Below, piece after piece: positions 46,106 through 49,031 of a DNA stretch of 51,849 nucleotides. Position numbers and translations under genes: made by a program. The stretch lies in assembly GCA_001510295.1 (NCBI GenBank), contig LFEZ01000019.1, forward strand, positions 1 to 51,849, in the 5' to 3' direction. Positions within the stretch are counted from its first letter, which is position 1, and the number at the start of each line of letters is the position of its first letter. The notes under the pieces were generated by a model, which was given only the letters and a program-made list of their open reading frames with translations, was not told the DNA's origin and did not search any database. Origin of the DNA: Thaumarchaeota archaeon casp-thauma4 (lineage in GTDB: Archaea > Thermoproteota > Nitrososphaeria > Nitrososphaerales > Nitrosopumilaceae).

Positions 46106-46161
46106 AAGAATCAATTTGATGTAGATTTATTTTCTAGATTTTTTGATGAATCTTGTTCGTT

Positions 46162-46974
46162 ATGGATATGTCGAAAACTGCTTCTTTTTCATCTATTGCA
46201 ACTTTGTCGATTATTCAAATGAGAAATGTGTCAGCTTCGTATGATTCGAAAAGTTTCGTTCTGAAAAACGTATCGATGAATGTTAAACGAGGTACAAATT
46301 ATGCAATTGTCGGTGCTTCTGGTTCTGGCAAATCCACGTTATTAAAATTGATGAATGGGATGATGATCCCAAGTGGTGGTGTTGTGTTGTATAACTACCA
46401 AAAACCAGATCTAAAAAATAGGCAATACCGAAAGTCAATTTCAAAAATTGGATATATCTCACAAACGTTGGGATTGGTAAAAAATTCTAGTGTATTGGAT
46501 AATGTGATGATTGGCGGTTTGCCAAGACTAAGTTTTTTTAATTCATTTTTCAAATTATTTCCAAAAGAAGAACTTGAACATGCGCATAAAGTTTTAAAAT
46601 TAGTAGGATTGGATGAGAAATCTAATCGTAAGGTTCACATGCTTAGTGGTGGTGAAAAACGTCGTGTTGCAATTGCACGTGCATTAATGCAAAAACCTGA
46701 TATTTTATTGGCAGATGAAATTGTATCCGAGTTAGACTCTGTAACTGCTAGAGAAATAATGGACGTAATAAAAGATGCACAAAAAAAATTCAATCTAACT
46801 GCAATAATGATACACCATGACATGAATTTGGCTTTAGAATACGCAAATCGAGTTGCAGTAATCAAAGATGGTGATAAAGTACTTGAGATTGGTGTTGAAG
46901 GTGAACAAATTATAGATTTTCAAACAGGTAATCTAACACAAGAAGAAATTTTGGAGATGTATAATGAACCCTAA
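46162..46974 (+). CDS. phnC: phosphonate-type ABC transporter ATP-binding protein PhnC
   Basis: A 270-aa ATPase. Walker A GASGSGKSTLLKLMNGM, Q-loop region IGYISQTLGLV, signature LSGGEKRRVAIARAL, Walker B ILLADEIVSELDS and the H-loop IMIHHDMNLAL. About 20 extra polar residues precede the first strand. It energises PhnE transport. ATG 46162 is used (46153 is a weaker TTG). The last 11 bases overlap phnE. Confidence 0.94.
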   Translation: MDMSKTASFSSIATLSIIQMRNVSASYDSKSFVLKNVSMNVKRGTNYAIVGASGSGKSTLLKLMNGMMIPSGGVVLYNYQKPDLKNRQYRKSISKIGYISQTLGLVKNSSVLDNVMIGGLPRLSFFNSFFKLFPKEELEHAHKVLKLVGLDEKSNRKVHMLSGGEKRRVAIARALMQKPDILLADEIVSELDSVTAREIMDVIKDAQKKFNLTAIMIHHDMNLALEYANRVAVIKDGDKVLEIGVEGEQIIDFQTGNLTQEEILEMYNEP

Positions 46975-47755
46975 AAATAATCTCTTAATTGGTGCAGTAA
47001 TTGCTGTTGTTGTTGTAATGTCTTATGACGTTGGTGTAGATCCTATTGCATTTGTTGAGGGGTTACCAAATCTTGGAATTGTTCTTAAAGAAATGACTGA
47101 GTTTGAATCTGAGCATTGGGGAACTGCATTTTGGGCAATGCTTGAAACAATTGAGATGGCGTTTATCGGTACTATTCTTGGTGTTGTAATATCTTTACCA
47201 CTAAGTATCTTTGCCGCAAGAAATGTCTCAAGCAAATATGTCTATGGACCATTACGTGCATTACTAGCTGCAACTAGAACATTTCCCTCAATCTTATGGG
47301 CAATTCTTTTTGTAATTGTAGTTGGTCTTGGATCTTTTGCAGGAATTCTTGCTATCACATTATACACAATTGGATTCATAAGCAAATTACAATACGAATC
47401 AATTGAGGCTATAGATTATGATCCTGTAGAGGCAACCACCGCAATAGGTTTATCAAAAATTCAATTAATCAGATATGTAATAATTCCTGAATCTGCACCC
47501 CATCTTCTAAGCCAGATACTGTACATGTTTGATTATAACGTCAGACAAACAAGCATTCTTGGAATTGTCGGTGCAGGCGGAATTGGATTTTACATTATCA
47601 ATTATATCAAATTCTTTGAATATGGAAAAGCTGCAGTCTTTATGCTTGTAGTGTTGATTGCTGTTCTTGCAATTGATTGGGCAAGTGTTAAAATTCGTGA
47701 TCGTTACATCATGAAAGCGCAACATGGTCAGCAAGTGAAAGTTGTAAAAAATTAG
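46964..47755 (+). CDS. phnE: phosphonate-type ABC transporter permease PhnE
   Basis: A 263-aa membrane protein with about six transmembrane segments, binding-protein-dependent permease fold: FWAMLETIEMAFIGTILGVV, RTFPSILWAILF, the coupling loop YDPVEATTAIGLSKIQLIRYVIIPESAPHL, split here by position 145-175, and GIVGAGGIGFYI. It overlaps phnC by 11 bases and so is translationally coupled to it. Confidence 0.93.
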   Translation: MNPKNNLLIGAVIAVVVVMSYDVGVDPIAFVEGLPNLGIVLKEMTEFESEHWGTAFWAMLETIEMAFIGTILGVVISLPLSIFAARNVSSKYVYGPLRALLAATRTFPSILWAILFVIVVGLGSFAGILAITLYTIGFISKLQYESIEAIDYDPVEATTAIGLSKIQLIRYVIIPESAPHLLSQILYMFDYNVRQTSILGIVGAGGIGFYIINYIKFFEYGKAAVFMLVVLIAVLAIDWASVKIRDRYIMKAQHGQQVKVVKN

Positions 47756-48004: not shown

Positions 48005-48376
48005 ATGCCTGAATTTATTGAAGAAGAAACTGGAAGACGTTTGTACCATGAAAATGAAACCACTTTAGATATTGAAAAGGAAATAGCCAAGAAATTTATT
48101 CCAAAAAAAGGTGTGGTAACATCCAGTTACATGCATCGAGATATGGATGAAGAAGAACCATTTGATGTGGACCGTGCTATTGACGAAGTAGGGGTTCCGG
48201 TTTTACAGGAAAAAACAAAATTATCACTTTTTGATGTAGAGTACAAACTTTATGGAATGAAAGTGGTCCCAGTTGATAAAAACACAGGTAAAGCTCTAGA
48301 TGAAAAACAAGTTGAAACATTGCGAAAACAATTAATGAAAAACTGGCAATTCGTAGATGAAGATGAAGATGGGTAG
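48005..48376 (+). CDS. hypothetical acidic protein
   Basis: A 123-aa soluble acidic protein: GRRLYHENETTLDIEKEIAK, DEEEPFDVDRAIDEVGVPV and a C-terminal helix, ending in a run of Asp and Glu. No membrane segment and no cysteines. A TATA-like ATTAAATACA lies about 23 nt upstream. The upstream interval 47756-48004 shows no convincing gene. Its 3' end overlaps the start of the next small gene. Confidence 0.6.
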   Translation: MPEFIEEETGRRLYHENETTLDIEKEIAKKFIPKKGVVTSSYMHRDMDEEEPFDVDRAIDEVGVPVLQEKTKLSLFDVEYKLYGMKVVPVDKNTGKALDEKQVETLRKQLMKNWQFVDEDEDG

Positions 48377-48485
48377 CGTTTGTGAAGATTTAGAAGCAAT
48401 CCAACAACAAATGCTTGCAAATGTAATTGCAAAAATGAGAAGAGAATCTAAAGACAAAAAAGAAAAATTAATCGCTGTTCAGTAA
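48363..48485 (+). CDS. 40-aa basic microprotein overlapping the previous stop
   Basis: From ATG 48363 (or ATG 48369) to TAA 48483-48485: MKMGSVCEDLEAIQQQ followed by a helix rich in Lys, Arg and Glu. Its start overlaps the end of the upstream acidic protein (stop TAG inside the codon GGT-AGC), as in translationally coupled pairs. Acidic and basic partners encoded together suggest a possible complex; function unknown. Confidence 0.55.
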   Translation: MKMGSVCEDLEAIQQQMLANVIAKMRRESKDKKEKLIAVQ

Positions 48486-48493
48486 TGCTTTAC

Positions 48494-48502
48494 TTTTTAT
48501 TA
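48494..48502 (+). promoter_or_regulatory. TATA-like box of candidate structured RNA
   Basis: TTTTTATTA is centred about 26 nt before 48523, the first base of a long stem. That spacing is exactly what archaeal promoters show. Confidence 0.45.
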
Positions 48503-48522
48503 GAGACACGATCAATGTAATT

Positions 48523-48600
48523 TAGTGAGGGGCAACTTTGCTTAAAATCCAATACGCGTTAACTCCTGCGTAAACGGCAGATGCCACTCTGTCCTCACTA
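48523..48600 (+). ncRNA. candidate 78-nt structured RNA
   Basis: The interval folds by eye into one extended arm: TAGTGAGG (48523-48530) pairs with CCTCACTA (48593-48600); GGCA pairs with TGCC (48531-48534, 48582-48585); TTTGCT pairs with GGCAGA (48537-48542, 48576-48581, one to two G-U pairs); TACGC pairs with GCGTA (48553-48557, 48568-48572). The apical loop is GTTAACTCCT and the 3' side has a 7-nt bulge ACTCTGT. A TATA-like box is correctly placed. It is not a tRNA, and no C/D-box pair is visible; H/ACA geometry does not fit well. Confidence 0.5.
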
Positions 48601-48632
48601 TAATTATTATACTCAATAGTCTTAGATCCATT

Positions 48633-49031
48633 ATGACCGATTCAGTTTTTGATCCAAGATGTAAAGAAATTCAAAAACATAAAGGTGTTAGATTTGCAGC
48701 AATCATTAATCATAATGGAGAGAAAATTGCTGGTGGCTTTACCGAAGGTGTTACTCCATATGAAGGAAATGAAACAAAGTTACATGACTTTTACAAATTT
48801 GCACTAACCGTTTCTCTAAGAACTGACGAATTAAAAAATTCACTTGGTGCATTAAACTACATTGCGTCAAGACGGGACAAAGTAATTTTAATCAGTTTTC
48901 CATTTCCTGTTACGACTAACATACTTTTGATATCTGCTGAACCTGGTCTTGATATAGAAAATTTAGCTCAAAATGTAGTTAAAATTTTCTCAGATTCGTC
49001 TGGATTCACAAAGACGCTTGCTGACGACTAG
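48633..49031 (+). CDS. small roadblock-like protein, paralogue of 27130 gene
   Basis: A 132-aa soluble protein with GVRFAAIINHNGEKIAGGF at the N-terminus, a long central helix and a strand pair VILISFPFPVTTNILLISAE. Layout and the first block match the protein at 27130-27501. Thaumarchaeal genomes carry several such proteins (I recall DUF6659); function unknown. A TATA-like ATTATTATA lies about 26 nt upstream. It overlaps the convergent nitroreductase gene by 4 bases. Confidence 0.65.
   Translation: MTDSVFDPRCKEIQKHKGVRFAAIINHNGEKIAGGFTEGVTPYEGNETKLHDFYKFALTVSLRTDELKNSLGALNYIASRRDKVILISFPFPVTTNILLISAEPGLDIENLAQNVVKIFSDSSGFTKTLADD

Follow-up and report, generated by a model that had tools for sequence, protein, structure and literature searches.

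A probable free-standing small RNA gene with a conserved bulged-rod fold in the Nitrosopumilaceae

A 78-nucleotide (nt) block on the forward strand of Thaumarchaeota archaeon casp-thauma4 (contig LFEZ01000019.1, positions 48523 to 48600 of the 51,849-nt stretch analyzed, here called the window) is very probably a free-standing gene for a structured RNA, as judged from its homologous loci. Comparison of these loci has shown a conserved rod, a promoter at a fixed distance, independence from neighboring genes, and the absence of a conserved reading frame. According to the genomes searched, the RNA family is confined to the Nitrosopumilaceae and is present as a single copy per genome. Members of this archaeal family rank with the most abundant cells on Earth, and much of the ammonia oxidized in the sea is oxidized by them. 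Our overall explanation, namely, that the block represents a new family of trans-acting small RNAs, is one that we consider rather probable, its uncertain mode of action included.

A bulged rod conserved among homologues

The conserved block was delimited by three covariance models (R1 to R3) and by covariation, and its length is 78 nt in the window and 70 to 79 nt in relatives. The four nested stems of 8, 4, 6, and 5 bp that had originally been predicted, along with a 7-nt bulge and a 10-nt loop, were found exactly at 48523 to 48600, all elements lying on the forward strand. The outer stem, P1, pairs TAGTGAGG (48523 to 48530) with CCTCACTA (48593 to 48600), and it is perfect in the window copy as predicted, with 8 of 8 bp paired. 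P2a is formed by GGCA (48531 to 48534) and TGCC (48582 to 48585) and is separated by a bulge of 1 to 2 nt (48535 to 48536) from P2b, in which TTTGCT (48537 to 48542) pairs with GGCAGA (48576 to 48581) in 6 bp, two of them G-U. The 3′ strands of P2b and P2a together read GGCAGATGCC (48576 to 48585) and were assigned by pairing and covariation. On its 5′ side, the internal loop consists of TAAAATCCAA (48543 to 48552), which together with the bases before it makes up the conserved CUUAAAAUCC. The innermost stem, P3, pairs TACGC (48553 to 48557) with GCGTA (48568 to 48572), the latter strand being supported by covariation, and it encloses the 10-nt apical loop GTTAACTCCT (48558 to 48567; GUUAACUCCU as RNA), which was placed by alignment. 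The 7-nt bulge, ACTCTGT (48586 to 48592), follows the consensus A-N-N-C-U-N-N.

Forty-six distinct homologues were aligned with MAFFT without the use of structure, yielding alignment A7. On this alignment, 96.3% of the pair cells of the rod are paired in the 46 sequences, double-sided compensatory changes occur in 16 of the 22 rod pairs, and none of 500 shuffles equaled the covariation of the rod. When the partners were slid by 1 to 3 columns as a control, pairing fell to 35 to 47%. RNAalifold yielded the rod unprompted from the alignment. For the individual stems, 97.6% of the cells are paired in P1 (6 of 8 pairs covarying), 97.7% in P2a (2 of 4), and 95.7% in P2b (3 of the 5 counted), and P3 exhibits covariation in all five pairs, occurring as TACGC/GCGTA, AGGAT/ATCCT, AGAGC/GCTCT, and GAAC/GTTC. 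The first three of these variants are found within Nitrosopelagicus, where they flank a constant loop, GUUAACUCC. The AACUCC of the apical loop is invariant (46 of 46 aligned sequences), and UAAAAUCC, the motif of the internal loop, is almost as constant. Three short forms of the Cenarchaeum type, L124 (G031), L175 (G257), and L176 (G065), have lost UAAAAUCC but retain the loop UAACUCC as well as P1 and the 7-nt bulge. The covariance check suggested along with the original prediction was thus borne out, the stems being conserved in relatives with paired substitutions, and folding of the RNA as a bulged rod, P1-P2a-P2b-P3, is confirmed by comparative analysis.

Alternative folds of the RNA

Folded as a single sequence, the window copy stands out only a little (z = −1.92 for 48494 to 48602), and its minimum free energy (MFE) structure is a tRNA-sized cloverleaf with four arms, at −23.5 kcal/mol, the rod reaching −23.2 kcal/mol. 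A covariance model for the cloverleaf (R1) and one for the rod (R2) were built from identical training sequences. On the divergent copies in G029 and G023, R2 reached 45.6 and 60.4 bits versus 28.0 and 40.6 bits for R1, and the rod was therefore chosen. The cloverleaf was rejected, since its T-arm-like fourth helix is paired in just 57% of the cells and R1 scores lower.

The RNA resembles a tRNA in its length, in the distance from its TATA-like box to its 5′ end, and in the cloverleaf MFE of the single sequence. It differs from a tRNA in its comparative structure, which is a rod, and in having no conserved T arm and no match by ARAGORN or Rfam at the locus. Moreover, in all 46 sequences, the two local hairpins are less stable than the rod duplex. 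Together with the weakly paired T-arm-like helix, these data leave next to no chance that the locus encodes a degenerate or unusual tRNA or a tRNA-like RNA.

The four P2 segments, GGYA/YGCC/GGYA/URCC, are mutually complementary in all copies, so that a cruciform isomer is possible on paper. This raises the idea of a two-state switch, in which the RNA would alternate between rod and cruciform by means of these segments. The cruciform pairs are satisfied at 96.6%, with covariation, and a branched structure is the MFE in 18 of 46 sequences. Nevertheless, we regard such switching as distinctly improbable: a column pair of P2b that is specific to the rod (16-62) is paired in 41 of the 46 sequences, with 24.6 expected upon shuffling, the 3′ local hairpin would require a loop of 2 nt, and the rod duplex is always the more stable. 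As the main fold, the cruciform was rejected; it equals the rod in pair counts but is less stable in every sequence and does not contain the discriminating 16-62 pair. A pseudoknot between GGCA and the loop of the last hairpin, considered on the first alignment, turned out to be P2a of the rod.

Promoter and genomic neighborhood

A TATA box, TTTTTATTAGA (48494 to 48504, +), was recognized by its sequence and by its equivalents in relatives, and transcription of the RNA is predicted to start at about 48520 to 48525. Of 45 readable loci, about 40 have the box some 30 nt ahead of P1, in varying gene contexts. Its sequence is TTTTTATTAGA in Nitrosopelagicus, whereas most other genera have AATATATTAGA, and it resembles the TATA-like boxes ahead of tRNA genes of the same genus. 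Since the box is constant while the neighbors change, we reasoned that it is the promoter, rather than any single gene, that accompanies the RNA. At the sequence level, the recurrence of the box at a nearly fixed distance in some 40 loci with differing neighbors is in line with the original prediction that the RNA has its own promoter.

The gene that follows in the window encodes a DUF6659 protein (48633 to 49031, +; PF20364, 1.1e-14); it lies outside the RNA gene and is a neighbor of the RNA only in Nitrosopelagicus. Because an AT-rich TATA-like box, identified by sequence, is present about 25 nt before it (48604 to 48612, +), this gene probably has its own start. No strong terminator was found after the RNA, and read-through into the next gene is therefore possible. 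In Nitrosopelagicus, 17 genomes contain both the RNA and a close orthologue of the DUF6659 gene next to it, 14 contain neither (G001, G002, G004, G005, G008, G010 to G012, G015, G017, G019, G024, G026, and G030), and joint loss or gain of this RNA/DUF6659 locus (48523 to 49031 of the window) splits the genus. In G023, the RNA gene (L156, 2449 to 2525) immediately follows the 23S rRNA gene and still carries its own TATA-like box.

Loci of the Nitrosopumilus type have a divergent Polyketide_cyc2 gene upstream of the RNA and, downstream of it, a 71-amino-acid (aa) open reading frame (ORF) and a tRNA_bind gene. At L131, L128, L108, and similar loci of this type, a stable cluster was observed in the order glycosyltransferase-like gene, Polyketide_cyc2, RNA, 71-aa ORF, and tRNA_bind, often followed by a gene for TATA-binding protein on the other strand. 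The 71-aa ORF yielded no Pfam match, and it also occurs elsewhere without the RNA. In G061, G066, and G031, representing three genera, the gene after the RNA is convergent and no same-strand gene directly follows, which indicated that the RNA is not simply an mRNA leader.

A cis-acting leader or riboswitch controlling the downstream gene would account for the same-strand gene that both Nitrosopelagicus (48633) and the Nitrosopumilus type have about 30 to 50 nt downstream of the RNA, with no strong terminator in between. We nonetheless hold this to be very unlikely, since the downstream gene varies by genus and is convergent in the three genera above, so that the same regulated gene, as expected for a riboswitch or an mRNA leader, is not found downstream in cis; furthermore, the 71-aa gene also occurs where the RNA is missing, and gene 48633 has a TATA-like box of its own. 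The idea of a coding gene was also rejected. One reading frame is open in 36 of the 46 copies and none in all of them, which, together with the lengths of 70 to 79 nt, disfavors coding, although the 75-nt subset may contain a short ORF.

Distribution in the family

Among the 31 genomes of Candidatus Nitrosopelagicus, the genus of the window, BLAST detected the RNA block in 15, and two further divergent copies were found in G029 and G023, adjoining the orthologues of the downstream gene. The rod model R2, trained solely on nine sequences of this genus, gave matches in 142 of 250 Nitrosopumilaceae genomes, mostly single ones. Beyond Nitrosopelagicus, the E values were mostly about 1e-8 to 1e-13, and the loci found with R2 exhibit the TATA box, an element outside the model, at the same distance. 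One R2 match (G232, E = 0.37) was discarded, as it lies inside a 391-aa ORF. A final and broader model, R3, was run on 400 genomes of the order, with weak matches (E of 0.08 to 10) counted as chance. It yielded matches in 138 of the 400 genomes, distributed over 11 genera and normally at one copy per genome, and none outside the Nitrosopumilaceae. The viral collection searched contained no match to the RNA.

The RNA was missing from 14 of the 31 Nitrosopelagicus genomes and from about 10 other genera of the family; thus, it is not universally essential. Several genomes lacking the RNA are 85 to 95% complete, so incompleteness alone cannot explain its absence. The RNA is present in a streamlined Nitrosopelagicus genome of 1.23 Mb, and an RNA that occurs once per genome, has an invariant loop, and is retained despite genome streamlining provides a concrete experimental handle. 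R3 matches include genomes of 2,045,086 bp (G031), presumably that of Cenarchaeum symbiosum, and of 1,645,259 bp, which we take to be that of Nitrosopumilus maritimus SCM1. In the 1,645,259-bp genome, the RNA is predicted at about 533,500 to 533,574. Since N. maritimus SCM1 is cultured, the expression, partner, and function of the RNA would be directly testable. Alignment A7 and the covariance model are ready for use in genome annotation.

Comparison with known RNAs

The window and homologues from about 15 other genomes were compared with the 4,227 families of Rfam 15. No match was obtained at the locus at gathering scores, and a search over 48380 to 48700 with E values up to 10 gave a single chance match to an unrelated family, ending before the RNA. 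Homologues of other genera did not yield any credible match to Rfam either, including SRP, RNase P, 5S, and known riboswitches. With no Rfam family matching and no tRNA reported by ARAGORN at the locus, the view that the RNA is not a tRNA, C/D RNA, or SRP RNA has held up.

We also considered an unusual RNA-modification guide of the C/D or H/ACA type, given that the RNA is small, archaeal, and has internal loops. The GUGAUGG that occurs in some copies is part of the covarying P1 and varies to GUGAGGG or GUAAGGG, with no CUGA partner seen, and the 3′ flanks are UAUAAU or UCAAUU, with no ACA box. Since the RNA lacks a C/D pair, an ACA box 3′ of the hairpin, a recognized kink-turn, and an Rfam match, and since its complementarity to rRNA is at chance, a guide RNA is to be regarded as extremely improbable. 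Taken together, tRNA, C/D, H/ACA, and riboswitch identities are disfavored.

A search of the open PMC literature found no earlier description of this RNA and no described small-RNA family in the Nitrosopumilaceae. Given this and the lack of a credible Rfam match, the RNA appears to form a new family of free-standing archaeal small RNAs, a broad kind that is already known, in agreement with the novelty originally proposed for it. The nearest comparable case is Tan1 (Thalassoarchaea ncRNA 1) of marine group II Euryarchaeota, also a lineage-specific orphan structured RNA of planktonic marine archaea (PMC5069720). Tan1 is 229 nt long and its transcript has been seen, in contrast to the 70 to 79 nt of the Nitrosopumilaceae RNA, which is known here from sequence alone. 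Regulatory small RNAs have been studied experimentally in other archaea, including sRNA162 of Methanosarcina mazei (PMC3510493) and sRNA132 of Haloferax volcanii (PMC6560208). Our RNA is likewise an archaeal small RNA that would be encoded by its own gene and is proposed to act on mRNAs; it differs from these two in being a sequence-derived family conserved across 11 genera, and no kinship in sequence or structure is claimed.

Possible modes of action

We propose that the locus is a free-standing noncoding RNA gene, from whose own TATA promoter an RNA of about 80 nt would be transcribed and fold into one bulged rod. As a stable handle, the rod could present the invariant, single-stranded UAACUCC apical loop to a partner, with the conserved 7-nt bulge displayed alongside this loop, and the RNA would presumably act in trans. 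As to how it acts, we tentatively favor a regulatory role in which it base-pairs with one RNA or with several.

Some bacterial small RNAs bind Shine-Dalgarno sites through C-rich seed loops. The RNA described here resembles them in exposing CUCC, and pairing of the CTCCT in its loop with Shine-Dalgarno-like sequences had been suggested in the original prediction. This suggestion did not gain support: in 380 crudely called genes of Nitrosopelagicus G025, enrichment of GGAG upstream of start codons was not observed, the counts being 21 genes there and 25 for sites inside genes. The RNA thus differs from the bacterial ones in that such sites are unenriched before genes here, and there is no homology between them. 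When the loops were compared with 16S and 23S rRNA, complementary matches were no longer than those of shuffled loops.

Alternatively, the rod with its loop and bulge may bind an RNA-binding protein, the RNA working as the core of a ribonucleoprotein (RNP) or as a sequestering decoy rather than by base pairing. The invariance of AACUCC in 46 of 46 sequences is stricter than expected of a seed drifting with its targets, and no rRNA or Shine-Dalgarno complement stands out. However, no candidate protein matches the distribution or the neighborhood of the RNA across genera, and DUF6659 co-occurs with it within the one genus only, where the two are adjacent. Protein binding is our second choice behind RNA pairing and, taken by itself, unlikely. 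Still less probable is that the RNA serves marine ammonia-oxidizing archaea as a global regulator or an RNP core through an unprecedented mechanism, for example, by binding a general expression factor via UAACUCC, possibly with switching between rod and cruciform.

Genes upstream of the RNA in the window

A 38-aa ORF, MGSVCEDLEAIQQQMLANVIAKMRRESKDKKEKLIAVQ (48369 to 48485, +), overlaps the stop of a 123-aa gene (48005 to 48376) and looks conserved in Nitrosopelagicus; no family match was obtained for either of the two. The region from 46153 to 47755 (+) contains phosphonate-type ABC transporter genes, of which the PhnC-like ATPase scored below its NCBIfam cutoff and the PhnE permease above it (TIGR01097, 251.9 bits).
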